Positions 13,777-49,406 of a stretch of DNA of 64,000 nucleotides are shown here, one piece after another. The stretch's first letter is position 1, and each line of letters opens with the position of its first letter. This stretch comes from Maribacter algicola (GTDB lineage: Bacteria > Bacteroidota > Bacteroidia > Flavobacteriales > Flavobacteriaceae). The notes beneath the pieces were generated by a model that was not told the origin of the DNA, ran no database searches, and saw only the letters and a program-made list of their open reading frames with translations. The translations under genes were made by a program, and so were the position numbers. The stretch spans positions 1,984,001 through 2,048,000 of the forward strand of contig NZ_QUSX01000001.1 of NCBI RefSeq assembly GCF_003933245.1. The letters run 5' to 3'.

Positions 13777-13790
13777 ATGATTAAGGTCAT
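13777..13790 (-). promoter_or_regulatory. Regulon dyad, site 1 (stress protein pair)
   Basis: ATGATTAAGGTCAT, fits ATGAY-N4-RTCAT on both arms. The -7 box TACCTTTA on the minus strand (13747-13754) is centred 33 bp from the dyad centre. The site is 47 bases from the stress protein start at 13729. Confidence 0.75.
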
Positions 13791-14276
13791 GCGGTAAAGG
13801 GGGTTTTTAAATTTTGAATAAATTGGGACTACGGAACCTAGAACTCGGTGAAAATTCGTCAGCTTGATAAAATCACCTAACTTTTTTCTTATCAGATTTT
13901 GAATAATTAGAGCTACATTCCGGTCCTTGCGGAAATTAATTGAATATTGCATTAGTGCTCAACCCGGGTAATTTTAATCACCTTAGGGTTTATATTTACA
14001 ATGCTAGCACCATTTCACTTCAAAACACTGCCCAAGTTCAATTCTAGTAGCTTTTTACATATAAGGTTGGTTTAAAGAATTGCCTTTTAAACCCATCATT
14101 TTTTGTTGGTATTTGTAGTGCTTATGTCAAATCGAATTAAGGGGACGTACGACCAACTTTTTGAATCTAAATACGTTAATAACTTTTGAAGAATGATAAT
14201 TTTAAAAATACTTCTTAGGAGATAGGTGTGAAATCAAACTAACGGTATGCTATCGCAGTAATCAAAATAGTGTTAG
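13791..14276. other. Intergenic, no gene seen
   Basis: 486 bases between the second and third stress protein genes. I see only short frames without family resemblance, no tRNA shape and no dyad with correct spacing (TGATAAAATCA near 13865 has the wrong spacer length). It may hold the 3' UTR of the third stress protein gene. Confidence 0.4.
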
Positions 14277-15113
14277 TTATTCATGTAATACCAACATTGG
14301 TATGGTGGTGTGAAAACTAAGTTTTTCGATAGTAGTGTCAAATAGGATTTGTTGAAGGAAATTTAGGTTCTTGGCGACCATGGTTAACATATTAATCTGG
14401 TTATCAGAAACAAAATTTAGGATGCTGGATTTTACATCCTTGCTTTTTACACTGTAAAAACTATGTGATTTAGGAAATGTCTCTTCCAAATAATCTTTCA
14501 AGTAGTCTTTATTTTTTTCTTGTTGGTCAGTTAATGGGATACTAAATTGTTCCACATTAAAAACCTGGAGGTTGGCATTTGTAATGCGTAATAGTTCTGT
14601 AATGGTTTTTAAAATGGGATAGGTGTAATACAGATTGTAATCTGTAGGGAAGGCAATTTTTTGAGGGGTAATGAATGAAGCGTTTTCAGGTATGACCAAT
14701 ACATTACAAAGCACTTTGGTAATAACATCCCCGGTATTACTACCTACAATGGTTTCCATTATACCAGAAGCACCTTTAGTACCCATCACTATAAGATCTA
14801 TTTTCTTTGCTTCCACTGTCTTACGCACAATATCTATAAAATTCCCATAATCTTGAAGTGCCAAAAAATGGTGTTTGTCATTTGTAGATACATCGGCAAT
14901 TCTTTCGAAGAGTGATTTCAATTTCTCCCGTATGACAGGACTTGAAGTTTTTCGAGGAAATACAAAGGAATTATTCTTGATTTCTGAGTTGCTCAATTCT
15001 CCAACATGCAGTATATAAAAGCTACAATTCTCATTTTTAAAAAAATATATCGCATATTCTAGTGCGTTCCAAGAATTTTCGGAGAAGTCTGTGGGTATTA
15101 AAATATGCTTCAT
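14277..15113 (-). CDS. Universal stress protein, two Usp domains
   Basis: Third paralogue, 278 residues from ATG 15113 (MKHILIPTDFS). A frame-upstream Met at 15131 overlaps the -7 box of the predicted promoter (15131-15138), so the later start is chosen. The first domain has GTKGASGIMETIVGS as ATP loop; the second ends TTIPMLVLHE, nearly identical to the second paralogue. It has its own dyad (15161-15174), so three of the four stress proteins are controlled from separate or shared copies of the same site. Confidence 0.92.
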   Translation of the reverse strand: MKHILIPTDFSENSWNALEYAIYFFKNENCSFYILHVGELSNSEIKNNSFVFPRKTSSPVIREKLKSLFERIADVSTNDKHHFLALQDYGNFIDIVRKTVEAKKIDLIVMGTKGASGIMETIVGSNTGDVITKVLCNVLVIPENASFITPQKIAFPTDYNLYYTYPILKTITELLRITNANLQVFNVEQFSIPLTDQQEKNKDYLKDYLEETFPKSHSFYSVKSKDVKSSILNFVSDNQINMLTMVAKNLNFLQQILFDTTIEKLSFHTTIPMLVLHE

Positions 15114-15160
15114 TAAATTGGTCTGGTACACAAAAATAGACCATTGAGTAAACCTACTAT

Positions 15161-15174
15161 ATGATATTTGTCAG
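15161..15174 (-). promoter_or_regulatory. Regulon dyad, site 2 (stress protein)
   Basis: ATGATATTTGTCAG, one mismatch in the last base. The -7 box TATTTTTG (15131-15138, minus strand) is a perfect TAnnTTTG centred 33 bp away. It predicts a transcript start near 15126 and a short leader to ATG 15113. Confidence 0.75.
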
Positions 15175-15208
15175 ATTATTCATTGTTATGATTTTGCAAT
15201 CATAAAGA

Positions 15209-16261
15209 CTAATCGACATATTGTAAAGCCTCAAGCTCCAAGATTTTGATGTTACGACCCTCAATGGTGATTAGTCCCTCTTTTTTAAAACCGGAAAGGG
15301 TGCGTATTAGACTTTCCGGAGCTATTCCTGCCACACTGGCAAGATCGTTTCTGGAAATTTTAATAGGCTCGTCAGTTTTTGTTTGCATGATTTCCGCGAA
15401 CTGTAATAACGTTTGAGCCGTTTTCTTGCGTACAGAGCTGTAGGCCATTTGAAGTAATTGTGCTTTTATTACGGAAATGTTCTCAGTGAACAACTCCATT
15501 AGCTCTATAGATACATCTTTATTTTTTCCTAAAATCTCCATTAGGTTTTCTTTGGAAATACCGGCAAGCTTCACTTGCTCCAAAGCCGTTGCGGATTCCT
15601 GATAAGGGATATTGTTTAAAAAAGAGGTAAAACCTAGGAAATCATCTGCTTTATACAATGATGTTGTGAGTTCCTTACCGTCTGCATCCATACAATGACC
15701 TTTGACCAACCCCTTAAGGATAAGATATATTTTATTTGATCGTGAACCTTCCTTATAAATAATAGCACCTGCATCAACTTCCACTATCTCGCCATTATCA
15801 TCAAAAAAATTCTTAAGTTCATGTAACGTACGCATTTCATCGTTTGAAATCGCTTGTTCCGTAGTTTCTGAATCGAGCATACGGTTTAAAAGTTGTGCCT
15901 TGGCCAATCTACTTTCAATGGCACTAATCAATTCTTCTTCTTCAAATGGCTTGGTTAGGTAATCGTCTGCACCGAGATCCATTCCTTTTCTGATTTCCTT
16001 ATGCTCTGTTTTCGCGGATAGGAAAATAAATGGGATATGTTTAGTTTTTTCATCGGAAGATAATTCCTCCAAAACTCCATATCCATCTATTAATGGCATC
16101 ATTATGTCGCAAATAATGATGTCCGGTAGGTTTTTCTTTGCGAATTGTATACCTATTTGTCCATTTGAAGCAGTTAGTACCGAGTAACCCGAAAGCTCTA
16201 AGAGCTCCTCAGTATTCTCTCTAAGTGCCTTATCATCCTCAATTAATAGAATTTGTTTCAT
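15209..16261 (-). CDS. Response regulator with receiver, cyclic-nucleotide-binding-like and CRP-type HTH domains
   Basis: The protein has 350 residues. Residues 1-125 are a receiver with acidic pair Glu8-Asp9-Asp10, phospho-acceptor Asp52 (IIICDIMMP) and the TKPF lysine. Residues about 145-265 are a cNMP-binding-type barrel (YKEGSRSNKIYLILKG). Residues about 270-340 are a CRP/FNR winged helix. The recognition helix reads APESLIRTLSGFKKEG and keeps the Glu-x3-Arg pair that in CRP and FNR reads the TGA half-site. It overlaps the kinase gene by 4 bases, making a two-component pair. It is the best candidate, with its paralogue at 34492, to bind the TGAY-N4-RTCA dyads around it. No Cys cluster for an iron-sulfur centre is seen. 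Confidence 0.9.
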   Translation of the reverse strand: MKQILLIEDDKALRENTEELLELSGYSVLTASNGQIGIQFAKKNLPDIIICDIMMPLIDGYGVLEELSSDEKTKHIPFIFLSAKTEHKEIRKGMDLGADDYLTKPFEEEELISAIESRLAKAQLLNRMLDSETTEQAISNDEMRTLHELKNFFDDNGEIVEVDAGAIIYKEGSRSNKIYLILKGLVKGHCMDADGKELTTSLYKADDFLGFTSFLNNIPYQESATALEQVKLAGISKENLMEILGKNKDVSIELMELFTENISVIKAQLLQMAYSSVRKKTAQTLLQFAEIMQTKTDEPIKISRNDLASVAGIAPESLIRTLSGFKKEGLITIEGRNIKILELEALQYVD

Positions 16262-17778
16262 TTTCTAATTGGGATTAAGTTTTTGGGGATTCGCAAAACA
16301 AAGGTAGAGCCAACATTTATCTTACTGGAGAATTCAAGACTTGCCCCCAAGTTTTCAAGGTGCTGTTTTGAGATATTCAGACCGATTCCTGTACCCTGCG
16401 TAACCAAGGCATTCTCCGCTCTAAAATACCGGTCAAATATATGTTTTTGATCTTCTTCTGGAATTCCAATTCCTTCATCGATGACTTTAATAACAACGAA
16501 TTCCTCCTCAATTTCCAATTTTAAATCGATAATGGAATCCTCTGGGGAATATTTAATGGCATTATGTACCAAGTTGGAAAGTGCCAATTCCAATGTCTTT
16601 TCATCAAAAAAGACGATAGCTTCATCTATGTTATCGGGATACTGAATTTTCTGTCCGGATTTGAGTAACATGTTAGCGTTATAGATTACTTCATTCACTA
16701 CTTTACTCAAAGGAAAGATTTCGTTTTTATAGTTCACCTTTCCGGACTCCAAGCGTTCTACAGATAAAAAATCGTTTAGAATGGCGTTCAGGTATTTTAC
16801 TTTGTTTTTTATAGTATTTACGTGTTTATCACGTTTTTCCTGTTGTTCTGTTTCGGTATATTTTCCCAACAAAGTAATGGATGTTAAAATACTGCTCAAA
16901 GGAGTTTTGAATTCATGGGAAACGAGGGATAGGAATCGTGTTTTTAATTCATTGAGTTCTTTTTCCTTGGCCAAGGCTTTTGTTAACTGCCTTGTTCGCT
17001 CCTCTACCGTTTTTTCAAGTTTTTCAGTATATCCTTTGCGTTCGGTTATATCCAAAATGATTGCAAAAAAGACTTTCTTCTCCCCCATTAGGGAAAGTTG
17101 GAGGTGGACTTCTACCGGATATAATGTACCATCCTTTCTTAGATGCTTGGTCTCAAAATCTACTTTGCCCATCGCATCTTCCAATAGTGGTTTAGCCAAA
17201 GACCTAAATTCTGAAAGTTTGAGGTCAGGTTTAATGTCCAAAGGTGTCATCTCCGCCAGTTCCTGCATGTTATATCCTAAATTTCGCTGAGCTTCCTTAT
17301 TTACGTTGATGAATCTGAGACTATCAATATCAAAAACATAAATTTCATTCAGGGTTTCATCAAAAATGCGTGCCCAGAGGCTAAGTTCTTTCTCTATTCT
17401 CTTACGTTCCGTAATATCAATGACCAGTGCCATGGTGTAGGTAGCACCATACAGTTCAAATGGGTTTAAACCTGCCTCAACGGGAAACTCGTGGCCATTT
17501 TTACAAACACCATGTAAATCCCTTCCATGGCCCATTTGGCGTTTTTCACCTTTGGCAATAAAATTTTGAACATGGGTTTCGTGGTGGTTGTGGAATCGAT
17601 TTGGGATTAGAATTTTTAAAGGTTTTCCAATGAGTTCTTCTTTTCCATATCCAAACATTTCCTCGGCTGAAGAATTGGTCGCTACAATTGTCTGCTCTTC
17701 ATTTATGACAATTACACCTTCTGAAACCCCTTCTGAAAGTAGGTTAAAAATATTACTGTTTTTCTTGAAAACATGCAT
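16258..17778 (-). CDS. Soluble PAS-PAS histidine kinase with FixL-like first PAS domain
   Basis: The protein has 506 residues and no membrane segment. PAS 1 (about 10-125) contains LIPNRFHNHHETH and GEKRQMGHGRDL. Against FixL, His66 aligns with the proximal haem ligand and Arg86 with the distal Arg that senses O2. PAS 2 spans about 133-248. A coiled coil (250-280) leads to the phospho-acceptor His288 (SLVSHEFKTP), then N box (HNAIKYSP), G1 (DEGIGIP) and G2 (GTGIGL). The last 4 bases overlap the receiver-CRP gene. An upstream dyad (17802-17815) exists, but the minus-strand -7 match is poor. Haem binding is an inference: many non-haem PAS domains keep the same His. Confidence 0.9.
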   Translation of the reverse strand: MHVFKKNSNIFNLLSEGVSEGVIVINEEQTIVATNSSAEEMFGYGKEELIGKPLKILIPNRFHNHHETHVQNFIAKGEKRQMGHGRDLHGVCKNGHEFPVEAGLNPFELYGATYTMALVIDITERKRIEKELSLWARIFDETLNEIYVFDIDSLRFINVNKEAQRNLGYNMQELAEMTPLDIKPDLKLSEFRSLAKPLLEDAMGKVDFETKHLRKDGTLYPVEVHLQLSLMGEKKVFFAIILDITERKGYTEKLEKTVEERTRQLTKALAKEKELNELKTRFLSLVSHEFKTPLSSILTSITLLGKYTETEQQEKRDKHVNTIKNKVKYLNAILNDFLSVERLESGKVNYKNEIFPLSKVVNEVIYNANMLLKSGQKIQYPDNIDEAIVFFDEKTLELALSNLVHNAIKYSPEDSIIDLKLEIEEEFVVIKVIDEGIGIPEEDQKHIFDRYFRAENALVTQGTGIGLNISKQHLENLGASLEFSSKINVGSTFVLRIPKNLIPIRK

Positions 17779-17801
17779 AAATCAAATATAAAGAGATTAG
17801 A

Positions 17802-17815
17802 CTGATTTTTGTCAT
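17802..17815. promoter_or_regulatory. Regulon dyad, site 3 (TerB-like gene, perhaps kinase)
   Basis: CTGATTTTTGTCAT, one mismatch in the first base. On the plus strand TACATTTA (17838-17845) is centred 33 bp away and points to the TerB-like gene. On the minus side the same distance gives only TATGCATG, so control of the kinase operon is uncertain. Confidence 0.6.
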
Positions 17816-17866
17816 TTATTAACTATGGCCCATGTAATACATTTAAGTGTTTAAAAAAGAGAAAGG

Positions 17867-18268
17867 ATGAAAAATACAGCAAGAACAATGAACAAGCTCT
17901 ATGAAAGTTTAGGCAAATTATTTTATGCCGTAGCGATTAGTGACGGTAGCGTTCATGTTAAGGAATGGGATAAATTAAAAGAAATTGTAAGGGAAGATTG
18001 GCTGTCTTTAGATGACTTTACAGATAGGTTTGGAACCGATTCCGCAAACCAAATAGAAATTGTTTTCGATGTACTCATGGAGTATACAAAAAGCAGTGAG
18101 GAATGTTTTGACGAATTCAAGGAATTTTATAAAGAACACCCACATGCCTTTACGGAGGAAATAAAGACTACGGCCAAAAAAACCGCAAGAGCGGTAGCTA
18201 ATTCTTTTGCGGGAAAAAACAAATCAGAACTAATAATTTTGGCTAAGCTTGACTTGTTGTTGAAATAG
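17867..18268 (+). CDS. TerB-like small helical protein
   Basis: The protein has 133 residues, all helical, acidic and basic in alternation. LGKLFYAVAISDGSVHVKEWDKLKEIV resembles the first helices of TerB-type domains (AxADGxVxxxE), which bind metal in tellurite-resistance systems; the match is partial. An alternative start is Met8 (17888). A purine-rich stretch precedes ATG 17867. It has a dyad with correct -7 spacing upstream. Function unknown; placement suggests a general stress role. Confidence 0.6.
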   Translation: MKNTARTMNKLYESLGKLFYAVAISDGSVHVKEWDKLKEIVREDWLSLDDFTDRFGTDSANQIEIVFDVLMEYTKSSEECFDEFKEFYKEHPHAFTEEIKTTAKKTARAVANSFAGKNKSELIILAKLDLLLK

Positions 18269-18306
18269 CTTGAATAGTTTTGCTTTGTATGGAATTATTT
18301 CAGGAT

Positions 18307-19137
18307 TTAGATTTTAATGGTGAGAACAGGTAGATTGGCATGGTTGGCAACATCCTCACCTATACTTCTACCACCTAATAAAAAGTGTAAAAAAGGCTTT
18401 CTGCCGTGAGTAGGTATGGCAAGTAGATCAAAATTGCCTTTTTTGGAATAATTCAATAAACCTTGCTCAACTGTGTAGTCATCATATATTACCACATCTT
18501 GTGATACATTATTGGATTTAAAAAAGAATTTTGCGATTTTTTCTTCGATTTCATTGGTGCTTTTAAAACCAATATATGGCGTGTTGATATAAATGAGTTT
18601 TAATTTTGCGGAAAAACCATTTGTAAAAGCCTGAATATTCTTAAATGCCAATATAACATCTTCAGAAAAGTCACAAGCAAAAAGCACTTTTTCGATCTTA
18701 AAATCCGGGTTTTTCATCTTTACTACGAGCACCGGCACATTTGAAGTACGCACTACCTTCTCAGTATTTGACCCAACCAATACTTCACTTATTCCACTAG
18801 TGCCGTGTGACCCCATGACTATTAAATCAATCTTTTGTTCTTGGGCCAACGCGTTGAACTCATTAAAAATCTTATAGTTTTGAACAATTTCCCTTATTCT
18901 AACATTTTTCAAATACGGTTTGTCCAAAAAAGGCATGAAACGCTTTTTAGCAAGTTCCATATAATATCTGGCCTCTTCGTATTCCTGTATTTCATTTTTA
19001 GACAACACGGCCTCTGAAAGCCCCAGCATATGCAGCACTACAATTTCTGCCTGTTGCCTTTTTGCAATTTGCGCTGCAATCTCCAAGGCATAAGAGGAGG
19101 TCTCGGAAAAATCTACGGGCACCAAAATTCTTTTCAT
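18307..19137 (-). CDS. Universal stress protein, two Usp domains (divergent paralogue)
   Basis: The protein has 276 residues. The first domain has the ATP loop GSHGTSGISEVLVGS. The second keeps a loop-like stretch (PTHGRKPFLHFLLGGRS) absent from the other three paralogues, so both halves may bind nucleotide. It starts 5 bases after the stop of the ribosome hibernation factor gene, so it is co-transcribed with it from the dyad at 19509-19522. It is more distant from the three stress proteins at 12-15 kb than they are from each other. Confidence 0.92.
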   Translation of the reverse strand: MKRILVPVDFSETSSYALEIAAQIAKRQQAEIVVLHMLGLSEAVLSKNEIQEYEEARYYMELAKKRFMPFLDKPYLKNVRIREIVQNYKIFNEFNALAQEQKIDLIVMGSHGTSGISEVLVGSNTEKVVRTSNVPVLVVKMKNPDFKIEKVLFACDFSEDVILAFKNIQAFTNGFSAKLKLIYINTPYIGFKSTNEIEEKIAKFFFKSNNVSQDVVIYDDYTVEQGLLNYSKKGNFDLLAIPTHGRKPFLHFLLGGRSIGEDVANHANLPVLTIKI

Positions 19138-19508: not shown

Positions 19509-19522
19509 ATGATTTAAATCAT
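19509..19522. promoter_or_regulatory. Regulon dyad, site 4 (hibernation factor and DUF2267, divergent)
   Basis: ATGATTTAAATCAT, a perfect palindrome. Minus strand: TACTTTTG (19479-19486), perfect -7 box, 33 bp from the centre. Plus strand: AAATTTTG (19545-19552), 7 of 8, also 33 bp. One operator can serve both genes. Confidence 0.8.
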
Positions 19523-20059: not shown

Positions 20060-20073
20060 ATGACTTTGGTCAT
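20060..20073 (+). promoter_or_regulatory. Regulon dyad, site 5 (WG-repeat operon)
   Basis: ATGACTTTGGTCAT. The plus-strand -7 box TAATTTTA (20096-20103) is centred 33 bp away. Start codon at 20126. The five following plus-strand genes are closely spaced, so the site may control them all. Confidence 0.75.
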
Positions 20074-20125: not shown

Positions 20126-20764
20126 ATGATAACGAAACTATTATTATTGACTTTTTTGATGATGTTTCCTTTAGCATTGCCATCGCAAGAGCTAAAGGGT
20201 ATTGATGAAATAGCCCCTTTTAGTGAGGGGTTGGCAGCAGTTAGGCAAGGTGAAAAGTGGGGGTTCATTGATGAGAACGGAACTTTGGTAATTGACTTTA
20301 GAAATGATGTTTATTGGAACGATGATGCTGATACCTCCAAGTCCGATATTTCAGGAGTGCGTTATCCCATGTTTCGAGAGGGTAGATGTGTAATTACAAA
20401 GAATGTGGAGGATGGTATTCCCGTTTATGGATTTATGGACACAAAAGGAAACACAATCATAGAACCCCAGTTTTTGAACGTTTTCCCTTTTAAGAATGGC
20501 TACACCACTGGGGTCCTATTCGATAAGACATTGAAAGGTAAAAACGAGTTCAAACTTGATATTTACGAGTTTAAGTTTTTTGATGTGTTGCTGGATGCCT
20601 CTGGAGAAATAGACGAATATTTTGAACGTCGGCATAATATCCTTATGACCAAAAAACGATATCAAGTACCTACAATTGGAGCAAAATATTTAGCGGAAAA
20701 TCTTGTTGCTATCCATAATAAAGATCAAGGATGGGAAATACGAAAACTAGGATTAAAAAATTAA
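20126..20764 (+). CDS. Exported WG-repeat protein
   Basis: The protein has 212 residues with a signal peptide (hydrophobic residues 4-19, cut near LPSQE). It has WG (KWG) repeats: IAPFSEGLAAVRQGEKWGFIDENGTLVI and later YGFMDTKGNTIIEPQF, where each unit gives a beta-hairpin with Trp-Gly or Tyr-Gly turns. Such repeats bind partners in the periplasm or at the cell surface; no enzyme role is known. It is the first gene behind dyad site 5. Confidence 0.8.
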   Translation: MITKLLLLTFLMMFPLALPSQELKGIDEIAPFSEGLAAVRQGEKWGFIDENGTLVIDFRNDVYWNDDADTSKSDISGVRYPMFREGRCVITKNVEDGIPVYGFMDTKGNTIIEPQFLNVFPFKNGYTTGVLFDKTLKGKNEFKLDIYEFKFFDVLLDASGEIDEYFERRHNILMTKKRYQVPTIGAKYLAENLVAIHNKDQGWEIRKLGLKN

Positions 20765-23258: not shown

Positions 23259-23429
23259 TTAAATTTTTTGTTCCAAGCTAATACCATGGTCAATGAATAT
23301 TCCTTTAATAAAACAGAAATGGCAATAATCTGTATTTATAGTGTCGTCTTCGTTGGTACCAAAATCAGACAAGTGGTACATGGGCATACCACAACTTTGG
23401 CATAAATTATTTTCTACTGAGGTTTTCAT
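23259..23429 (-). CDS. Small zinc-ribbon protein (56 residues)
   Basis: ATG 23429 to TAA 23259. The protein shows two Cys pairs, C10-x2-C13 (LCQSCGMPM) and C36-x2-C39 (DYCHFCF). Between them lies the GTNEDDTINTDYC stretch typical of the putative zinc-ribbon family that opens CQSCGMP. It probably binds one zinc and may contact RNA or protein. The gene has its own regulon dyad (23486-23499), so it is a regulated, stand-alone unit. Confidence 0.85.
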   Translation of the reverse strand: MKTSVENNLCQSCGMPMYHLSDFGTNEDDTINTDYCHFCFIKGIFIDHGISLEQKI

Positions 23430-23485: not shown

Positions 23486-23499
23486 ATGATCTTGGTCAG
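23486..23499 (-). promoter_or_regulatory. Regulon dyad, site 6 (zinc-ribbon gene)
   Basis: ATGATCTTGGTCAG, one mismatch. At 33 bp on the minus strand the -7 region is TAACTTAC (23456-23463), 6 of 8 matches. It lies 56 bases before ATG 23429. Confidence 0.65.
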
Positions 23500-23595: not shown

Positions 23596-23994
23596 TTATT
23601 CATTTGCTAGGTTTTGAATTACCTGTTCAAGTTTTGCACGTACCTTTTTCGCTATCGAAACAAGTGCATCGTTTTTTATAGCTTGCATGGAAGCAGCTGG
23701 ATCTACGGCTGCTATTTCTATGTTTCCTTGCCCTTTCTCTTGAACGATGACATTACAAGGTAGCATGGTGCCGATTTTATTTTCTACCTGGAGCGCCTGA
23801 TAGGCCATAGATGGATTGCAGGCCCCAAGAATTTTATATTTTAGGATATCAACATCCAGTTTTTGCTTTAGTGTATTTTTCATATCTATTTCGGTCAAAA
23901 CTCCAAAACCTTCTTTTTTTAATGCCTCTTTTGTTTTTAAGATTGCTTCCTCAAACGTCAAGTTAATTAGTTCGGTAGAAAAATAGTAGTTCAT
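23596..23994 (-). CDS. DUF302 family protein
   Basis: The protein has 132 residues. It matches DUF302 by TFEEAILKTKEALKKEGFGVLTEIDMKNTL, then KYKILGACNPSMAYQALQ and GTMLPCNVIVQEKG. The conserved Cys of GACNP and LPCNV are both present. The family is soluble, possibly thiol- or redox-related, and common in stress islands; no reaction is known. A perfect dyad lies at 24101-24114, which predicts a leader of about 70 bases. Confidence 0.85.
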   Translation of the reverse strand: MNYYFSTELINLTFEEAILKTKEALKKEGFGVLTEIDMKNTLKQKLDVDILKYKILGACNPSMAYQALQVENKIGTMLPCNVIVQEKGQGNIEIAAVDPAASMQAIKNDALVSIAKKVRAKLEQVIQNLANE

Positions 23995-24100: not shown

Positions 24101-24114
24101 ATGATTTAAATCAT
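24101..24114 (-). promoter_or_regulatory. Regulon dyad, site 7 (DUF302 gene)
   Basis: ATGATTTAAATCAT, perfect palindrome, identical to site 4. At 33 bp on the minus strand is TAACTTGG (24071-24078), 7 of 8. It is 106 bases before the start codon, longer than usual. Confidence 0.7.
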
Positions 24115-28275: not shown

Positions 28276-28289
28276 ATGACCAATGTCAT
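28276..28289. promoter_or_regulatory. Regulon dyad, site 8 (pfkB operon and M50 protease, divergent)
   Basis: ATGACCAATGTCAT. Minus strand: TATATTTG (28246-28253), perfect -7 box, 33 bp. Plus strand: TACTTTCG (28312-28319), 7 of 8, also 33 bp. Predicted leaders are about 24 and 13 bases. This is the clearest bidirectional operator in the window. Confidence 0.82.
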
Positions 28290-32651: not shown

Positions 32652-32665
32652 CTGACCTACATCAT
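32652..32665. promoter_or_regulatory. Regulon dyad, site 9 (P-type ATPase and Hsp20, divergent)
   Basis: CTGACCTACATCAT, one mismatch. Minus strand: TACATTTG (32623-32630), perfect -7 box, 32 bp. Plus strand: TATTTTCG (32688-32695), 33 bp, which leads to Hsp20 at ATG 32736. Confidence 0.72.
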
Positions 32666-33410: not shown

Positions 33411-34178
33411 TTAGGGACCTTTAACAATGTTACTTTGCACTAGGGCCTCTTTGGCGGATTTGTACCCCAGTTCAAAAAGAGCATCTATATTTTTTAGGGA
33501 AAACATACTAAACTCTGCCATGCGCTCTGGACGTATCAGAACATCACATTGACCAAATTTTAGCACAGTTTCGTTGGCAACCATTATATGGTATGCACGC
33601 TCCAATACATTATGGGCATGCTTCAACTCTGTTTTCTTCATCTTTTCAAAAGGATTCACATAGATTCCTATAATCTGATCGCAAAAGTCTTTGATAAGAT
33701 CGACCGGGAAATTGTTCAAAGTGCCACCGTCAACATAATAGCCGTTCTTAAAAGGAACAGGTGCAAATAACCCAGGTACGGCTGCAGAAGCCAAAATGGG
33801 TTTAATTAACTCACCTTTGTTAAAAATTTTTAAGGTACCATCCAAAAGATTGGTTGCGGTAACATGTAAGGATATCATTAAGGATGAAAAGTTATCCTCT
33901 GGAAGATAGACTTTTAAATGATCATAGAATTTTTCAGTATCTACAAATCCAGGTTTGCTTCGTGCATATTTTTTAATGCTGAAAATTTGTGTTGATTTAA
34001 AAAAATCCAATATTTCTTCCCAATGGCTACCCCCGGCATATAGTGCGCCAACTATGGCTCCTGCACTGGTTCCGGCAATATGGGATGGGTGGATCCCAAA
34101 TTCCTCGAGTGCCTTGATGGCACCAATATGAGCTACGCCCCTAACGCCTCCTCCTGATAGTACCAAACCAACATTCAT
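33411..34178 (-). CDS. Patatin-like phospholipase
   Basis: The protein has 255 residues. It has the oxyanion loop SGGGVRG (residues 8-14), the nucleophile Ser38 in GTSAG and the dyad Asp in YVDGGTLNNFPVD. It is a short RssA/YchK-type patatin without membrane segments, and hydrolyses acyl chains of lipids. The dyad at 34231-34244 with a perfect -7 box is its promoter. A lipid hydrolase in this set could remodel membranes at growth arrest (inference). Confidence 0.88.
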   Translation of the reverse strand: MNVGLVLSGGGVRGVAHIGAIKALEEFGIHPSHIAGTSAGAIVGALYAGGSHWEEILDFFKSTQIFSIKKYARSKPGFVDTEKFYDHLKVYLPEDNFSSLMISLHVTATNLLDGTLKIFNKGELIKPILASAAVPGLFAPVPFKNGYYVDGGTLNNFPVDLIKDFCDQIIGIYVNPFEKMKKTELKHAHNVLERAYHIMVANETVLKFGQCDVLIRPERMAEFSMFSLKNIDALFELGYKSAKEALVQSNIVKGP

Positions 34179-34230: not shown

Positions 34231-34244
34231 ATGACAATCATCAT
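34231..34244 (-). promoter_or_regulatory. Regulon dyad, site 10 (patatin gene)
   Basis: ATGACAATCATCAT. The minus-strand -7 box TATTTTTG (34201-34208) is perfect and centred 33 bp away. Predicted leader of about 17 bases to ATG 34178. Confidence 0.75.
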
Positions 34245-34266: not shown

Positions 34267-34280
34267 ATGACCGAAATCAT
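34267..34280 (+). promoter_or_regulatory. Regulon dyad, site 11 (second receiver-CRP gene)
   Basis: ATGACCGAAATCAT. The plus-strand -7 box TATATTTA (34303-34310) is centred 33 bp away and points to the regulator at 34492. The predicted leader is about 177 bases, the longest in the set. If the regulator binds here, its own gene is under feedback. Confidence 0.68.
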
Positions 34281-36171: not shown

Positions 36172-36501
36172 CTATTTTTGTAGTTGGGCGTTCTTCCTTT
36201 TAAGCTCTTCGAGTTTACGCTCTAGATTTTCAATAATATCATCTGCCTTGTAGCTCATTGTTGAGATGGCTTCATCCAATTTTCTATCAAAAGCGTCCTT
36301 TTTTTCGTTTGCTGTTTTTGTAAGTTCTTCTTTGGCATGAGTTATACGCTCTGCAAGATCGTGAGCGGTATCGTCAACCTTCCTTTTAATTTTATGGCGT
36401 GTCTCAACGCCCTTATCGGGAGCATAAAGAATTCCTATTCCCGCGCCTATGGCGGCACCTGTTAATAGTGCCAGTAAAACACTTCCGTTATCGTTTGTCA
36501 T
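36172..36501 (-). CDS. YtxH-domain protein
   Basis: The protein has 109 residues. The N-terminal Gly-rich helix LLALLTGAAIGAGIGILYAPDKGVETRHKIKRK is the YtxH signature (GxxxGxxxGxLxAPxxGxxxR). The rest is a long Lys/Glu coiled coil. The membrane-anchored family is general-stress induced in Bacillus. It heads the operon with the holin-like and 81-residue genes and has dyad site 12 in front. Confidence 0.85.
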   Translation of the reverse strand: MTNDNGSVLLALLTGAAIGAGIGILYAPDKGVETRHKIKRKVDDTAHDLAERITHAKEELTKTANEKKDAFDRKLDEAISTMSYKADDIIENLERKLEELKRKNAQLQK

Positions 36502-36572: not shown

Positions 36573-36586
36573 ATGATTTTGGTCAT
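36573..36586 (-). promoter_or_regulatory. Regulon dyad, site 12 (YtxH operon)
   Basis: ATGATTTTGGTCAT. On the minus strand TATTTTTA (36543-36550) is centred 33 bp away. 71 bases before the YtxH start codon. Confidence 0.75.
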
Positions 36587-36814
36587 GCTTCTCGAATTTG
36601 ATGATTTGCGGGAGTTTTATAAAATCCTTATAGTTGTAAATGTGCGCTAATGATATTCCTTTAATTCCCGTGCATTTGGGAATAATACCATATGAAGGCT
36701 ATAGCTTTTGACAAAAAAGGATTTTTAACAGAAGACCATATCAGCAAGAAATTAAGATTGCTTTCTGTACGACTTCTAACCAAGATTTTTGAGGTATAAT
36801 TTGTCTATAAGGCA
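36587..36814. other. Intergenic with one unplaced 35-codon frame
   Basis: An ATG frame on the plus strand, 36692-36799, reads MKAIAFDKKGFLTED then KKLRLL. Its first residues recall the opening of zinc-type alcohol dehydrogenases (MKAI-F), but the rest does not follow. It may be a relic. Nothing else recognised. Confidence 0.25.
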
Positions 36815-36818
36815 TATA

Positions 36819-36846
36819 AAAACAGGAGACTAAAATCTCCTGTTTT
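36819..36846. terminator. Strong 11-bp stem-loop terminator
   Basis: AAAACAGGAGA (36819-36829), loop CTAAAA, TCTCCTGTTTT (36836-36846). The stem is perfect and its U-rich arm works on both strands. On the minus strand it would end a transcript coming from site 13. Confidence 0.7.
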
Positions 36847-37004
36847 CCGTGAAACGTTCAAATTTGTTTATGCTTTCTATCTAGCTCGTAAATCGCTTTA
36901 TTTCTAAAATGACCTAAAAGACGATTTTAGCATTAACGGTATCTTCCGTTACACTATGGTCCATTTTTCCTTTCGGAACTATAGACCAATTTCGTATGTT
37001 AAAA

Positions 37005-37034
37005 GAAACCGAGGTACCAAGGTGCCTCGGTTTC
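37005..37034. other. GC-rich hairpin
   Basis: GAAACCGAGGTACC (37005-37018) and GGTGCCTCGGTTTC (37021-37034) pair over about 14 positions with one G-T pair. It lies inside the candidate transcript. No good T-run follows on either strand, so it need not be a terminator. Confidence 0.55.
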
Positions 37035-37252
37035 ATAGAAGATGTTCTTCAACTCAATCTCCACTTACATTGATTCATATGGAATATATTGCTATATCCC
37101 TTGGTGATACAAACGGTTTAAAATGGGTGTCCTTAACCTCTTCTTATCTAACAACTTAGTTTTCGAAATCGATTACTAAGTGTATTAAATTTATCAATGA
37201 ACTTTTACTTTTGAATATACAGCTAAAATACAGTGCTAAATGTTTATACAAA

Positions 37253-37266
37253 ATGACCTAGGTCAT
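37253..37266 (-). promoter_or_regulatory. Regulon dyad, site 13 (no obvious target gene)
   Basis: ATGACCTAGGTCAT, a perfect palindrome. On the minus strand TATTTTAG (37223-37230), 6-7 of 8, is centred 33 bp away. The plus strand has no -7 box at that distance. The site lies 15 bases beyond the stop of the BON pseudogene. Confidence 0.65.
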
Positions 37267-43880: not shown

Positions 43881-44336
43881 CTAAGATTCCCTTTTCTTAC
43901 CTGTAATCTCATTAATATTAATTCGGAATACGATGGGCGAACAATCCGATTCAATCTTGGCCGAAAATTCACTAATGTATTCGCTGTCCATCCCTTTAGT
44001 GCGACTCAAAATATTTTTTATACCCTCCGAAAACTCATGAAGCATATGTTTTGCGTCTATACCCTTTAACTCTTCAAAAGTGCCAAGTACTTGAACAGTT
44101 TGCCAATCTGCCACTGTTTCAATCTGATTAACTATAAAAGCTACAGCATTATTTTTGCGCATTGCTGCGATCTTGTGTCCTTCTGAAGAGTAACTAGTAA
44201 TGGTATGGCTTTCTCTATCATAGTAATAGGTCATTGGCACTATAAATGGACTTGTACCCGATATATATGCTAAGTTTCCCATATAGTTGCTGGATAGTAT
44301 TTGAAGGTTTTCAGCAGGTTCTAAATTTCTTCTCAT
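43881..44336 (-). CDS. PNPOx-like flavin-binding protein
   Basis: The protein has 151 residues from ATG 44336 (MRRNLEPAENLQIL). A Met at 44360 falls before the predicted transcript start (about 44353) and is rejected. The split-barrel flavin fold of the pyridoxamine oxidase-like family is indicated by GNLAYISGTSPFIVPMTYYYDRE, HTITSYSSEGHKIAAMRKNNAVAF (given in two parts as seen) and VADWQTVQVLGTFEEL. It probably binds FMN or F420-like cofactors; no substrate known. It has dyad site 14 with a perfect -7 box. Confidence 0.85.
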   Translation of the reverse strand: MRRNLEPAENLQILSSNYMGNLAYISGTSPFIVPMTYYYDRESHTITSYSSEGHKIAAMRKNNAVAFIVNQIETVADWQTVQVLGTFEELKGIDAKHMLHEFSEGIKNILSRTKGMDSEYISEFSAKIESDCSPIVFRININEITGKKRES

Positions 44337-44387
44337 AGCTTTGGTTTTATCTTCTTCCAAAACTAGTTTTTACAAAGTGAAATCCAT

Positions 44388-44401
44388 ATGACATTGGTCA
44401 T
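44388..44401. promoter_or_regulatory. Regulon dyad, site 14 (PNPOx-like gene; perhaps small gene)
   Basis: ATGACATTGGTCAT. Minus strand: TAGTTTTG (44358-44365), perfect -7 box at 33 bp. Plus strand: TTTATTTA (44424-44431), 7 of 8 for TAnnTTTA, 33 bp, facing the 61-residue gene. PEP synthase, 79 bases downstream of the PNPOx-like gene, may share the transcript. Confidence 0.78.
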
Positions 44402-44718: not shown

Positions 44719-44799
44719 CAATCTGAAAATAAACAAGATAATCTGGAGTCTTTTTCTAAAATTGCTGTCATTTAGGCGATAAGACCAATACAAAAAATC

Positions 44800-46596
44800 C
44801 TATTCTTTTTCTACAAAGCTTATGGGCTCATCCTTTTGCTCCGCATTTTCCAATAGGGAGTCTTTTTCTCCGTAGAGAAGCTCAGCAACCTCTATTAGAT
44901 TCTTAATGATTTCGTTTAAGTTGTCTTTATCATTGACCAAAGAAGATGCCATCTTGGGAGTTATTAAATTATCCCTAATTAGCTTATTAATTGATTTGGT
45001 AGTTTGATATTTTCCATCTTTAGCTTTATTTTTAAGTATAAAAAGTTTGGTGTCATAGATTTGCTTGTCCACTTGTGTCCTTAACAAATATACTACCCGC
45101 AACACCCTTATTATTTTTTCGCGAAACTTGTTATACTCCTGAACCATATGAATATTTTCCGAGGTTCTATATTGGGATACATTTAATCCCAACTCCAAAA
45201 CACCCTTTATGATTTCCACCATTTTGCGATTGGCTATTTTGATTTCTGAAATCCTATTGTTTAGGTTTTTGCCCATTTTCAAGGTGCTTTGAGCGGTAGT
45301 AGCATATCTTAGGATTTCACCATATATGGTTTTTACCTTACTGTAATAGAGATTGCGAACATCTGTTTTGAAATCCTCTTTGGTTTTCATCAAAATATCC
45401 TTTGGGTCTAAGTCGGATTTTATGTCCCCTCTATGAATATTCAGTGCATGTGCTATTATTTCAAAAATCGCATTTTCAAAAAGATATTTGGATTCTTCGG
45501 TCAATGCTGAAACCACAGTGCTTGGAAACTGTAGTATGCTCTCGTTTAAATATTTTGGTTGTTCAATACCCTTTTCTTTTTCTTCCTTGAAAAATTTGAT
45601 AAGAAATTTTTCCGTTCTTTTTGTTAGTGGTATCATTATGAGTACGCCCAAAATGTTGAAGATAGTATGGAACATGGCCAATTTGAGCGTAAAATTATCA
45701 GCAGACACGCCGGTGATAGCTGAAACGAAATTTACAAAATTGGCAAGAGGAAAAATGATAGTCAAGGCTATGGCTCCAGTAAAAAGATTAAAAAGTAAAT
45801 GGGCTCCAGCCAGTCTTTTTCCGGCAATGTTGGAACTTAAGGAACCCAAAATTGCTGTAATGGTCGTGCCAATATTTGCACCTATCGCCAAGGCCAGGGC
45901 ATTTTCATATTGTATTTGTCCAGCAGCTAATGCAGTCAATATCAAAGCCAAGGTTGCACTGCTGGATTGAAGAATTGTGGTAATTATGATGCCAATACCT
46001 GCATAAACAATAACCCCTAAGAAACCTGGAATGGCATAATGGGTAAGATCAATATATTCTTTAAACACATCAAAACCTTCTTTCATGTACTGTATTCCCA
46101 GAAAGAAAAATCCTAATCCCGCGAGAATATTTCCTATGCCTTTCAAATGCGGTTTTTTTTGTAGGGAAAAAATTATTCCAAACACGAGCATTGGCATGGC
46201 AATGACGGCAATATCGATTTTTAGACCAAAACCTGCAACGATCCAAGCCGTTGCTGTTGTTCCTATATTGGCACCGAAAATTATTCCCATTCCACCTCGA
46301 AGAGTAACCAATCCTGCACTTATAAAAGAAATGGTTACTGCAGACACTAATGAACTTGATTGTATAAATGCGGTGACCAATGCACCAGCAGCAATGCTTT
46401 TGTATAACTTATCAGTTGCCTTTTTTAAAATTTTTTGCAAAGGGCCTTTCGCAAACCCCTTAAATCCTTCTTCCAACATAATCATGCCAAAAAGTAATAT
46501 GGCAATACCTACAGCGATCGATTCAAAATTTGTGTTTAAGAACAAAACCACGGCAAGCATGATAAGAAATATATAAAACAATGCCTTTTTAATCAT
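44800..46596 (-). CDS. Na/Pi cotransporter family protein with PhoU-like tail
   Basis: The protein has 598 residues. Two inverted membrane repeats carry the family's QSSS signatures: TAFIQSSSLVSAVTISFISAG and TTILQSSSATLALILTALA. GANIGTTATAWI and GANIGTTITAIL follow each. Residues about 350-590 are a PhoU-like helical domain. It moves phosphate (or a related anion) with Na+. The 179 bases before it, after the MlaD gene, hold no dyad, so it may have another promoter. Confidence 0.88.
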   Translation of the reverse strand: MIKKALFYIFLIMLAVVLFLNTNFESIAVGIAILLFGMIMLEEGFKGFAKGPLQKILKKATDKLYKSIAAGALVTAFIQSSSLVSAVTISFISAGLVTLRGGMGIIFGANIGTTATAWIVAGFGLKIDIAVIAMPMLVFGIIFSLQKKPHLKGIGNILAGLGFFFLGIQYMKEGFDVFKEYIDLTHYAIPGFLGVIVYAGIGIIITTILQSSSATLALILTALAAGQIQYENALALAIGANIGTTITAILGSLSSNIAGKRLAGAHLLFNLFTGAIALTIIFPLANFVNFVSAITGVSADNFTLKLAMFHTIFNILGVLIMIPLTKRTEKFLIKFFKEEKEKGIEQPKYLNESILQFPSTVVSALTEESKYLFENAIFEIIAHALNIHRGDIKSDLDPKDILMKTKEDFKTDVRNLYYSKVKTIYGEILRYATTAQSTLKMGKNLNNRISEIKIANRKMVEIIKGVLELGLNVSQYRTSENIHMVQEYNKFREKIIRVLRVVYLLRTQVDKQIYDTKLFILKNKAKDGKYQTTKSINKLIRDNLITPKMASSLVNDKDNLNEIIKNLIEVAELLYGEKDSLLENAEQKDEPISFVEKE

Positions 46597-46775
46597 AGAC
46601 TAATAGCGAAAGAGTATTTAATTTGGATTCATAGTTTTTTGTTAAAATTCGGTTCCCAACCTATTCATTCAAGGAATTGGATACTACTCGTATTACTCTT
46701 ACCTTCAAGATTGGAAATGTACTTGCGAGGTTTAATATAATAAAGTAAAGGATTCTGGATATGTTTAATTTTTGA

Positions 46776-47756
46776 CTAACGTTTTTCTTCCTTTTTCTTC
46801 TGTTTCTCTAATTTTCTAAAGTACCCGCGGGTTAAAAAATTATGTTTTAGCGCTTCCATATTTTCATTGAAACGCTCCGTTCCCTGTTCAATATTCCGCA
46901 TAGTTCTATCTAGTTGGTTTACCAAAACAGTATCTTGAGATAAATAGCCAATTGCCCCATCACCCGTTTTGATATCGCCAACTAGGGTATTTAAGTCCAT
47001 TGAAATCTTCTTTATTTGGAAACTGGAACTCTCAAGGTTTTGAATGATTTTTTTGATTCTACTCCCAGAAATGGTATCACTGAGCAACACGCCTGCGGCA
47101 CTTTCTTCAAAATTAAAGTTGTCTACCAAGCGATTTAACTCCCCCATGGAAGTATTAGCATCTTCACTTGTTTGCTTGAGGTTTTTTAGTGTTTGCTCTA
47201 AGTGGTCCGCTAAAACAGTGTCATTGAGTAATCTCCCTAATGTACCTTTACCTTCGGTAAGTGCCTTTGATACTTTCAACAGGTCGGCTGTCAACAATGC
47301 GGCGTTATCATTTGTTATATTTAATGTACTCATCATATCTTGTGTACCAATTTTGCTAGTAGATTGCAGCTCATCTCCTGGAACAATAAGATCACTAGGC
47401 CCTTCACCTGGTGTTATATTGATAAGCATACTGCCCACCAATCCATTAGAGCCAATACTTGCAAGTGCATTTTTTTTAATATGCTTGCGCATGTTATCCT
47501 CAATTCTCATAAGTACTCGTATAGTAGTATCATTTATCATTTCAATACCATTTACAGTACCAACGTTAATTCCTGAAAAACGAACATTATTGCCATTTTG
47601 GAGACCAGTGGCATTTTTAAATATAGCACTTATACCAAAGGTTTTCCCGAACATATTCTGTCTATTGCCAATTAGAAAAGCTGCAAAAAGCAACAGGACT
47701 GTCCCTATGACTACAAACACGCCTAATCTTAAATTTTCCAACTTAGTCTTTGTCAT
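46776..47756 (-). CDS. mlaD: MlaD-type MCE lipid-binding protein
   Basis: The protein has 326 residues from ATG 47756 (MTKTKLENLRLGVF), 4 bases after the stop of the ATPase gene; earlier Met codons lie inside that gene. A membrane anchor (LGVFVVIGTVLLLFAAFLIG) comes first. Then the MCE domain: FKNATGLQNGNNVRFSGINVGTV and GSNGLVGSMLINITPG. A long helical tail follows, as in longer Flavobacterial members. It passes phospholipids between the outer and inner membranes as part of the Mla/Yrb complex. Confidence 0.88.
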   Translation of the reverse strand: MTKTKLENLRLGVFVVIGTVLLLFAAFLIGNRQNMFGKTFGISAIFKNATGLQNGNNVRFSGINVGTVNGIEMINDTTIRVLMRIEDNMRKHIKKNALASIGSNGLVGSMLINITPGEGPSDLIVPGDELQSTSKIGTQDMMSTLNITNDNAALLTADLLKVSKALTEGKGTLGRLLNDTVLADHLEQTLKNLKQTSEDANTSMGELNRLVDNFNFEESAAGVLLSDTISGSRIKKIIQNLESSSFQIKKISMDLNTLVGDIKTGDGAIGYLSQDTVLVNQLDRTMRNIEQGTERFNENMEALKHNFLTRGYFRKLEKQKKKEEKR

Positions 47757-47760
47757 ATTC

Positions 47761-48546
47761 CTATTTTTTAAAAAACGCCTCAACTTTTGGATCGGATGAC
47801 GATGATAATTCAGAAAAAGTGCCATCTGCATAGTTTATGCCGTCTACCAACAGAATCATTCGCTCGGATATCACACGGGCACAGTCTACGTCGTGGGTAA
47901 TTATTAAAGAAGAGGTATTATATTTTTTTTGGATACTGCGCATTAATTCAATGATTTCCTTAGCCGTAATAGGGTCCAGTCCACTGGTGGGTTCATCGTA
48001 TAGGATAATTTTTGGTTTGAGGATAAGCGTACGCGCCAAAGCAACACGTCTCTTCATTCCTCCAGAGAGCTTGGATGGCATTAAATCCATGGTATGGCCC
48101 AGACCTACATTTTCCAATGCCTCTAGCACCAGAGGGGTTGTATCATGGAAACCACCCAGTTTCTCTTTGTGTCTGCGCATTGGAAATTCTAGATTCTCTC
48201 GCACCGTCATGGAATCATACAGTGCGCTTCCTTGAAAAAGAAACCCTATATCAGAACGTAGTTCGTCCAAGTTTTGACGATTCAAGGTGCCTATCTCCTT
48301 ACCCATAACTTCTATATATCCACTATCTGGTGTAATTAATCCTACAAGGCATTTTATCATTACAGACTTGCCCGAGCCCGATTTTCCCATGACCACTAAA
48401 TTTTCACCTTGATGTAGCACCATGTTGAAACCATTTAGTACATGGTTACTGCCAAAGCTTTTACGAAGATCTTCAATACGGATGACTACCTTTCGACTGT
48501 TGTCATTTATTGGTTCCATTAAGTTTTTAGAAGCTATTAAAGGCAT
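47761..48546 (-). CDS. mlaF: MlaF-type ABC transporter ATPase
   Basis: The protein has 261 residues. It has Walker A (VVMGKSGSGKSVMIKCL), Q loop (FLFQGSALYDSMTV), signature LSGGMKRRVALAR, Walker B (IILYDEPTSGLDP) and the switch His (ITHDVD). FQGSALYDSMTV is typical for MlaF-like ATPases. An alternative start at Met10 (48519) is possible. It drives lipid transfer with MlaE and MlaD; the three genes are packed within 10 bases of each other. Confidence 0.92.
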   Translation of the reverse strand: MPLIASKNLMEPINDNSRKVVIRIEDLRKSFGSNHVLNGFNMVLHQGENLVVMGKSGSGKSVMIKCLVGLITPDSGYIEVMGKEIGTLNRQNLDELRSDIGFLFQGSALYDSMTVRENLEFPMRRHKEKLGGFHDTTPLVLEALENVGLGHTMDLMPSKLSGGMKRRVALARTLILKPKIILYDEPTSGLDPITAKEIIELMRSIQKKYNTSSLIITHDVDCARVISERMILLVDGINYADGTFSELSSSSDPKVEAFFKK

Positions 48547-48555
48547 TTTTTTGAT

Positions 48556-49320
48556 TTAGAGTTCATAAAAAACATCGGAAACGAAAACTGCAATAAAATC
48601 CACAACGAACAATAAGAGGGATGCCATTACTACTGCCGTGTTGGCCGCTACACCAACACCGGCCGTGCCTTTTTTGCAATAATATCCCTTATAGCAGCCT
48701 ACCAAACCAATAACAAAACCGAAAAAAAAGGATTTTACCGTTGCTGGGACCAAATCTCCAAAACTCAAGGCATCAAAAACCGTATTAAAATATAGTTGAA
48801 AAGATACTTGTCCCTTCAAATTCTCAACCAAGGCGGAACCATATAGTGCAATCAAATCTCCAAAAATGACCAGAAGCGGAATCATTAGCGTCGTAGCCAA
48901 AATTCGTGTCACGACCAAATATTTGAATGGATTGGTTCCAGATACCTCCATGGCATCAATTTGCTCCGTTACCCGCATAGATCCCAATTCGGCCCCAATA
49001 CCTGAAGCGATCCTGCCTGCACAGATCAAAGCCGTTATGACAGGGCCAATTTCCCTTACTATGGAAATACCTACCATATTGGGCATCATTGATACGGCCC
49101 CGAATTGAATCATGGTAGGCCTTGATTGGAGTGTTAACACTAAACCAATAATGAAGTTGGTCATAACAACCAATACCAAGGACCTATTTCCCATATGGTA
49201 ACATTGGCGTAACAGTTCCTTGAATTCGAAAGGAAGTGTAAATGTCTCTTTGAAAAAGCGGCCTGCAAAATAGGATAGTTCTCCTATTTGGATGAAGAAA
49301 TTCTTTATCCTACTGACCAT
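48556..49320 (-). CDS. mlaE: MlaE-type ABC permease
   Basis: The protein has 254 residues from ATG 49320 (MVSRIKNFF). Upstream codons at 49359 and 49365 are at or before the predicted transcript start near 49358. About six membrane helices include the MlaE signature IGPVITALICAGRIASGIGAELG (read as two parts) and the coupling region VTEQIDAMEVSGTNPFKYLV. It is the first gene of the lipid transport operon and sits behind dyad site 15 with a perfect -7 box. Retrograde lipid transport in the regulon suggests envelope upkeep in resting cells. Confidence 0.9.
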   Translation of the reverse strand: MVSRIKNFFIQIGELSYFAGRFFKETFTLPFEFKELLRQCYHMGNRSLVLVVMTNFIIGLVLTLQSRPTMIQFGAVSMMPNMVGISIVREIGPVITALICAGRIASGIGAELGSMRVTEQIDAMEVSGTNPFKYLVVTRILATTLMIPLLVIFGDLIALYGSALVENLKGQVSFQLYFNTVFDALSFGDLVPATVKSFFFGFVIGLVGCYKGYYCKKGTAGVGVAANTAVVMASLLLFVVDFIAVFVSDVFYEL

Positions 49321-49392
49321 TTTTGAAGCGTTAAATACCGGTTTTGCAACGTAACCCATTCTCAAATATAGATTGAATAGGATTTTTTAAAA

Positions 49393-49406
49393 ATGACCAA
49401 TATCAT
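49393..49406. promoter_or_regulatory. Regulon dyad, site 15 (Mla operon; perhaps LOG gene)
   Basis: ATGACCAATATCAT. Minus strand: TATATTTG (49363-49370), perfect -7 box at 33 bp. On the plus side the nearest candidate, TACTTTTT (49432-49439), is centred 36 bp away, so control of the LOG gene is less sure. Confidence 0.78.

Follow-up and report, generated by a model that had tools for sequence, protein, structure and literature searches.

A CRP/FNR-type class II operator repeated in Maribacter algicola and its relatives points to a probable low-oxygen survival regulon under receiver-CRP response regulators

A 64,000-nucleotide stretch of the Maribacter algicola genome (contig NZ_QUSX01000001.1, positions 1,984,001 to 2,048,000; hereafter the window, to which plain position numbers refer) carries, within a block of 36.5 kb, many copies of a 14-bp dyad, ATGAY-N4-RTCAT, around the genes of two receiver-cNMP-HTH_Crp response regulators (RR1 and RR2). 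The dyads stand at a fixed distance from a promoter box, and this geometry, its conservation in relatives and the two CRP-type proteins in the block support an operator of CRP/FNR type that defines a regulon, as a preliminary description of this DNA had proposed. In our judgement the sites probably belong to a low-oxygen survival regulon, comparable to those of DosR and the lxa locus, which in marine Flavobacteria would be run by CRP-type response regulators. Flavobacteria are marine polymer degraders that meet oxygen gradients.

The window was re-scanned for the dyad, exact or with at most one mismatch. All 15 positions listed in the preliminary description were found again with the match quality claimed there; 11 are exact and four (15161, 17802, 23486 and 32652) have a single mismatch in an outer base. 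The whole window contains 30 dyads with at most one mismatch, against 9.5 ± 2.9 after shuffling, and none of 100 shuffles reached 30. Among 4-mer dyads with spacers of 0 to 16 in the script-called non-coding DNA of the block, ATGA-N6-TCAT came first with 11 occurrences, and the runner-up had five. The genome (4,114,314 bases) contains 37 exact dyads and six matches to the reversed pattern; 12 of the 37 fall within the block (binomial 4e-16, post hoc) and five in a second cluster of 8 kb. The dyad repeat itself is confirmed as real. The spacing had been given as TGA-N8-TCA, but is TGA-N6-TCA, the dyad of CRP/FNR-type class II operators. The region from 49.5 to 64 kb, said to be free of sites, holds an exact site at 50236, whose strict -7 box faces the gene that follows, and another overlooked site, with one mismatch, lies at 49414, just beyond the last listed site at 49393. 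All sites had been placed in intergenic DNA before transcription units; 37253 precedes a predicted non-coding RNA and no protein gene. Three sites (32652, 34231 and 34267) lie inside open reading frames (ORFs) of the mechanical caller, which took the longest ORF greedily and gives approximate gene starts. We regard these ORFs as over-extended or spurious, since there is a usable gene start downstream of every predicted start of transcription.

All 15 sites carry the Bacteroidota -7 box core, TAnnTT, exactly 22 bp past the dyad in the direction of the target. The strict box TAnnTT[TC][AG] was present at this distance at 12 of the 15, the exceptions being 23486, 24101 and 37253, and also at the two overlooked sites. 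When the 61 spacings from 0 to 60 were tested in the window, 14 strict boxes fell at 22 and at most two at every other spacing. The TAnnTTTG box of Flavobacterium psychrophilum spans positions -12 to -5 (excerpts of PMC9723704). Given this box position, a spacing of 22 bp centres the dyads at -41.5 relative to the start sites predicted from the box. This is the class II position of CRP/FNR activators, and class II activation by FNR and CRP in Escherichia coli likewise uses a TGA-N6-TCA dyad at -41.5. Unlike the E. coli systems, the promoters described here have the Bacteroidota -7 box TAnnTTTG and a putative activator bearing a receiver, and the outer and inner bases of the dyad differ from TTGAT-N4-ATCAA. 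The geometry, together with the conservation and the two CRP-type proteins described below, strongly supports the dyad as the operator of a CRP/FNR-type protein, which would bind in activator position. The features of the block are given in Table 1.

Table 1. Dyad sites, regulator genes and predicted RNA, in window coordinates
Feature	Position	Strand	Remarks
Class II dyad, universal stress protein (USP) gene 12890-13729	13777..13790	-	box TACCTTTA at 22 bp
Class II dyad, USP gene 14277-15131	15161..15174	-	box TATTTTTG
RR1, receiver-cNMP-HTH_Crp response regulator, 350 aa	15209..16261	-	Pfam
PAS-PAS-HisKA-HATPase sensor kinase; PAS1 FixL/DosP-like	16258..17778	-	
Dyad common to orf133 (+, class II box at 22) and kinase-RR1 operon (-)	17802..17815	+	
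orf133, 133 aa, no Pfam/NCBIfam match	17867..18268	+	targeted in 71/74 relatives having orf133
Class II dyad, S30AE (HPF-like) gene, then same-strand USP 18307-19137	19509..19522	-	
Class II dyad, WG-repeat gene 20126-20764	20060..20073	+	
Dyad, 56-aa CxxC small ORF 23259-23429	23486..23499	-	box core only, TAACTTAC
Dyad, DUF302 gene 23596-23994	24101..24114	-	imperfect box TAACTTGG
Bidirectional class II dyad, PfkB (-) / M50-CBS protease (+)	28276..28289	.	boxes at 22 bp in both directions
Class II dyad, Hsp20	32652..32665	+	
Class II dyad, patatin-like gene 33411-34178	34231..34244	-	
Class II dyad, RR2; leader about 177 nt	34267..34280	+	
RR2, second receiver-cNMP-HTH_Crp response regulator, 356 aa	34492..35562	+	
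Class II dyad, YtxH/phasin-like gene 36172-36501	36573..36586	-	
Predicted non-coding RNA, about 405 nt, intrinsic terminator	36814..37218	-	folding, covariation, no conserved ORF seen, no Rfam match
Dyad ATGACCTAGGTCAT + N22 + TATTTTAG, predicted RNA promoter	37253..37266	-	
Class II dyad, PNPOx-like gene 43881-44360	44388..44401	-	
Class II dyad, MlaE/MlaF/MlaD genes 46776-49365	49393..49406	-	
Overlooked one-mismatch site, LOG-like gene 49475-50239	49414..49427	+	box TACTTTTA at 22
Overlooked exact site at LOG-like gene 3' end, facing YkuD gene	50236..50249	+	box TATTTTTA at 22

The whole arrangement was searched as the composite TGAYN4RTCA-N23-TAnnTTTR. The genome contains 23 composites, none of the reversed control and one with the spacing two bases longer (24); with at most one mismatch, 50 were found against 11 in the control. 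Twelve of the 23 lie in the block, two in the second USP cluster (locus L016), four in a cbb3-oxidase cluster (L139/L140) and five elsewhere, one of the latter (C2:9968) inside a gene. The regulon is not solely local, as composites also occur at the cbb3/FNR cluster and the second USP cluster. Genome-wide, the plain dyad alone was a poor predictor, whereas the dyad with 22 bp and a -7 box was a good one. Of 20 remote exact dyads, 19 were examined (C3:178013 was left out); 14 lie within genes, one of them with a box at 22 bp, and five in non-coding DNA, two of them with such a box. In 240 kb of control DNA, none of the 32 strand-counted dyads had a box at 22.

Conservation was followed in the best 80 of 563 confirmed stretches from a scan of genome contigs with RR1 (1.57 Mb; some flanks end at contig ends). 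These relatives are mostly Maribacter, Arenibacter, Aquimarina and other Flavobacteriaceae, with one of the Cytophagaceae by title; their motif is MTGAYAWWTRTCAT, and the box was 22 bp from the dyad in 417 cases, each other spacing accounting for at most 20. Clustering of AT-rich palindromes through base composition could explain the background of plain dyads inside genes, but is scarcely credible for the operator: shuffles and spacing control rule out chance dyads, and the composite test, with no reversed composites, no boxed control dyads and this preference for one spacing, refutes that explanation. Footprints were expressed as genes with an upstream composite among all best-BLAST-hit homologues with upstream DNA. 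Besides orf133, they were found for HPF (24/27), M50-CBS (13/13), WG (15/20) and Hsp20 (5/6), and also for USP-c (50/53), USP-a (63/84), USP-d (30/50) and USP-b (62/135); the USP counts mix paralogues, because genes were assigned by best BLAST hit. Among 496 relaxed sites in the relatives, 18 lacked a gene downstream, and 123 of the genes lying downstream had no counterpart among the window proteins, the larger unmatched groups including, as named by eye, thioredoxin and a small CcoS-like protein. Across the class, 249 of the 295 genomes contain at least one composite, and the control spacing gives 139; with its fixed promoter geometry, such regulons should be readable from sequence throughout the class. 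In a survey of one genome per genus in the family (n = 41), the median number of composites was 22.5 in the 18 genera with a receiver-CRP match (E <= 1e-60) and 7 in the 23 without (p 6e-5, uncorrected for kinship). In this survey, as in the RR2/RNA co-occurrence and the family RNA count below, candidates were partly scored in some genomes and absences are uncertain.

The two CRP-type proteins reported inside the block are indeed present, and both are two-component response regulators; the genome encodes four HTH_Crp_2 proteins in all. RR1 adjoins the PAS-PAS kinase gene and lies downstream of it, and an alignment of 79 rows shows no variation at its receiver residues D52 and K104 or at E316, I319 and R320 of the recognition helix. 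The best solved relatives of PAS1 of the kinase are FixL (1d06, 5e-16) and DosP, both with haem PAS domains. H66 of PAS1, found in 80 of 80 rows, aligns with the FixL/DosP His, which we take to be the haem ligand, and R86 is present in 73 of 80, so that the pocket has the His and Arg of the FixL type. Unlike in the FixL system, the kinase has a receiver-CRP fusion as its neighbour, a single protein that in effect combines the roles of FixJ and FixK.

From these observations we infer that the dyads are operators of RR1 and RR2, whose dimer, centred at -41.5, would cover the site where a -33 element would lie and would work as a class II activator of sigma-A promoters (-7 box TAnnTTTG). The PAS kinase, which resembles the haem oxygen sensors FixL and DosP, would phosphorylate RR1, possibly RR2 as well, once oxygen or respiration drops. 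Both regulators would then turn on USPs, ribosome hibernation, Hsp20, PfkB, PEP (phosphoenolpyruvate) synthase and Pta-AckA metabolism, together with membrane upkeep (Mla, patatin) and the structured RNA. A parallel arm would consist of the cbb3-oxidase genes, which have the same operator beside a stand-alone FNR-like protein.

The regulator genes themselves appear to be controlled in different ways. On the kinase-RR1 side of the shared dyad at 17802, the box TATATTTG lies at 11 bp, with the dyad centre at about -30.5. Among 78 loci there were 30 box hits, and in many from Maribacter, Arenibacter, Pricia and Pseudozobellia the kinase -7 box is only 9-11 bp from the shared dyad; 32 of the 78 have no dyad within 300 bp, and six others, titled Algibacter, Bizionia, Lacinutrix or Flavobacteriaceae, have the box at 23-24 from the dyad. 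In the 9-11-bp group this would suggest autorepression of kinase-RR1 by occlusion, and RR2, with a class II site of its own, would be subject to positive autoregulation. By eye, the kinase mRNA (window 17767-17802, minus strand; L036-L060) looks leaderless or nearly so, as in many relatives the -7 box ends a few nucleotides before the ATG. No kinase gene adjoins RR2 in the window; in another genome of the genus Maribacter (L183:12-2950), RR2 is preceded by a kinase-like gene, 47% identical to the window kinase over 244 residues.

RR1 and RR2 might favour distinguishable inner sequences of the dyad. Sites around RR2 and the predicted RNA favour TGAYCTARGTCA-like centres and those around RR1 favour TGAYAWWTRTCA. 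An RR1 matrix was trained on L052-L115 without L058 and an RR2 matrix on L160, L164 and L169-L177. Held-out sites were called RR1-like in 50 of 58 cases on the RR1 side and in 6 of 27 (L178-L181 and L183) and 7 of 23 (L166-L168) on the RR2 side, where some loci came from genomes also used in training, L179-L181 are not beside RR2, and L178-L181 and L183 were scored with a relaxed box. The locus means did not overlap (17 RR1 loci at +1.7 or above, 8 RR2/RNA loci at -0.2 or below; p 4e-5; box relaxed for L166-L168). The two-flavour reading is retained only because the held-out loci separate, and under it RR2 would prefer sites of the CTGACCTAGGTCAT type, whereas those of the TGAYAWWTRTCA type would suit RR1.

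Several results weigh against regulation of the block by RR1 and RR2 as outlined. Within the window alone, the split of inner sequences is not significant (p 0.12). Some window targets lack a footprint in the relatives, namely LOG (0/11, in a scan requiring TGAY, which the LOG site of the window does not have), patatin (0/4) and RR2 (0/2), and none was found for SDR (0/21) or MlaF (0/10) either. Nor is the kinase-RR1 operon itself a class II target, with a composite before the kinase in 1/79 and before RR1 in 0/80 of the homologues in relatives. The His and Arg of PAS1 are compatible with haem and may reflect its presence, which they do not prove. Composites occur in 21 of the 23 genera without a receiver-CRP match, and the possible binders are indistinguishable by their recognition helix, because E-x-x-I-R is common to RR1, RR2 and the stand-alone FNR-like protein (L139:7978-8667). 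The last two points, with the median of 7 composites in those genera, would suit this FNR-like protein as the main binder everywhere, the response regulators acting elsewhere or only modulating. The operator with its 22-bp box also precedes the FNR-like gene itself, a USP gene, CcoN-O and HemN in the cbb3 cluster, where CcoI has a one-mismatch box, and RR1-side sites of the relatives resemble those of this cluster. We nevertheless consider such a role of the FNR-like protein rather unlikely, since the block of sites surrounds RR1 and RR2, about 1.4 Mb away from its gene, genera with a receiver-CRP have about three times more composites, and RR2 loci have a distinct inner sequence. A separate, FNR-only operator at the cbb3 genes was also considered, as the arms there differ from those in the block (inner A in 8/8 vs 9/34, p 2e-4), and was dropped because the RR1-side sites of relatives look like the cbb3 sites. 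FNR proper is an Fe-S protein with a third N-terminal Cys among its four cluster cysteines. In P0004, C5 and C8 are present and the third N-terminal Cys is absent; its NCBIfam Fnr score was 107 bits against a cut-off of 228.

Among the products encoded at or behind the sites are USPs, S30AE (HPF-like), Hsp20, PfkB, CBS proteins, PEP synthase (NCBIfam equivalog), Pta, AckA, Mla proteins, patatin and a phasin-like protein. Downstream of the PNPOx-like gene, the same strand carries the genes of PEP synthase, Pta and AckA, which might form a single operon with it. The 19509 dyad also has a one-mismatch box towards a DUF2267 gene on the plus strand, and an ORF in L064 similar to the 56-aa CxxC ORF likewise has a composite site. 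A P-type ATPase, whose gene lacks its own class II box, and a UPRTase are also encoded in the block, which thereby holds the DosR-type set of USP, Hsp20, PfkB, CBS, P-type ATPase and ribosome hibernation genes. In the flanks of RR1 retrieved from the relatives, CcoN-O was found in 11 of 80, HemN-like in 21, CcoI-like in 7 and any of these in 25; the cases are not independent, because they are mostly from Aquimarina, and the HemN-like and CcoI-like calls (BLAST at 1e-30) may include relatives with other roles. Low oxygen is proposed as the signal because of the gene content, this cbb3 linkage and the PAS domain. A carbon or energy regulon of CRP type (Cur/MalR-like) would account for PEP synthase, Pta-AckA and PfkB, which are targets or follow one, and CRP/FNR homologues of a Flavobacteriales metagenome-assembled genome, with targets predicted by a MalR matrix, were assigned to carbon sensing (excerpts of PMC8510549). 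The FixL/DosP-like PAS, the cbb3/HemN linkage, the USP/HPF/Hsp20 content and the receiver domains of the regulators make a carbon regulon quite improbable.

The preferred reading, a low-oxygen regulon under RR1 and RR2, has parallels in other phyla. DosR and OsdR are not known to be receiver-CRP proteins and come from a different phylum than Maribacter; neither regulator nor operator of the DosR/NarL type was found here, the regulators being receiver-cNMP-HTH_Crp proteins. DosR/DevR of Mycobacterium tuberculosis and OsdR of Streptomyces likewise combine a response regulator and a sensor kinase in the control of USPs, and the shared targets include a heat-shock protein with DosR and pyruvate phosphate dikinase with OsdR; the OsdR sites are GGGCCG-like, unlike the dyad described here (excerpts of PMC5069765). 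The lxa locus of Burkholderia cenocepacia, which is up in low oxygen, comprises six USPs, alpha-crystallin, phosphofructokinase and metabolic genes, and the regulators discussed are Crp-Fnr proteins of FixK/Anr type and FixLJ, with no receiver-CRP fusion mentioned in the excerpts (PMC6127331, PMC9104464). NmpRSTU of Myxococcus is likewise an oxygen-linked phosphorelay over USP and cbb3-linked genes, but differs in its NtrC-type regulator and protoglobin sensor (excerpts of PMC11841059). Gene sets for surviving hypoxia have been described in Actinobacteria, Proteobacteria and Myxococcus, where they are controlled by unrelated regulators. A literature search, with most subscription journals outside its scope, turned up no such set for Bacteroidota and no description of the operator, the regulators or the RNA in that phylum.

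Downstream of site 37253, where no ORF of more than 40 aa was found in the transcript sense, lies a conserved stretch whose predicted transcript ends in a hairpin and a T-run. Nine sequences could be aligned with a mean column identity of 81%, and the minimum free energy of folding gave a z of -7.0, with none of 100 shuffles as low. Of 99 consensus pairs, to which 94% of alignment cells conform, 20 have two-sided changes, against 11.6 ± 2.1 in shuffled alignments (0/500) and at most 10 in slid structures; these controls are lenient, because the structure itself came from this alignment and its sequences are relatives of one another. No Rfam family scored above its gathering threshold, and weak matches (E 1.3-2.3) were taken as chance. 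A protein product was rejected, as no long ORF and, judging by translations of two sequences and by indels, no conserved reading frame were seen. We predict that 36814-37218 is a structured non-coding RNA, new to Rfam.

Within the reach of BLAST, 15 copies of the RNA were found; 12 of the 36 Maribacter-genus genomes account for 14 of them, and the remaining copy comes from another genus. The operator and a TAnnTTAG box at 22 bp precede 14 of the 15, namely the nine aligned copies and five of six others; these five include the copy from the other genus and, for two genomes, a second copy, one of which (L180) matches in two separated pieces only. The copy at L181:4461-4728 has no operator and its terminator looks degraded, perhaps as a decaying copy. 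Among 31 genomes of the genus scored for both RR2 and the RNA, the RNA was present in 12 of the 14 with RR2 (one of the 14 being a partial match) and in none of the 17 without (p 6e-7, uncorrected for relatedness), and in the other-genus genome (G431) an RR2 of 70% identity lies about 10 kb from the RNA. Across the family the RNA is rare (2/199 genomes, that of M. algicola included). A small RNA regulated by DosR, DrrS, reportedly exists and is a parallel only. We see an even chance that two paralogous receiver-CRP regulators use two operator codes, that RR2 gained the 405-nt RNA (with a MTGAYCTARGTCAT-like dyad, N22 and TAnnTTAG) as a dedicated effector, and that a DosR-like programme including a small RNA arose independently in Bacteroidota. 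The outcome includes an RNA family ready for testing.

Just past the block, at 51654-55621, genes for a sigma-70-type factor, FecR and a TonB receptor-plug protein were found, in a region without a dyad match at up to one mismatch. The second dyad cluster (L016:3510-13592) comprises four USP genes and genes for thioredoxin, a beta-CASP metallo-hydrolase, PLD and MscS-like proteins; beside it, at L016:11-2016, lie the genes of an HD and PycTM (Pycsar effector-type) protein and, following it, of a BLUF blue-light sensor protein.

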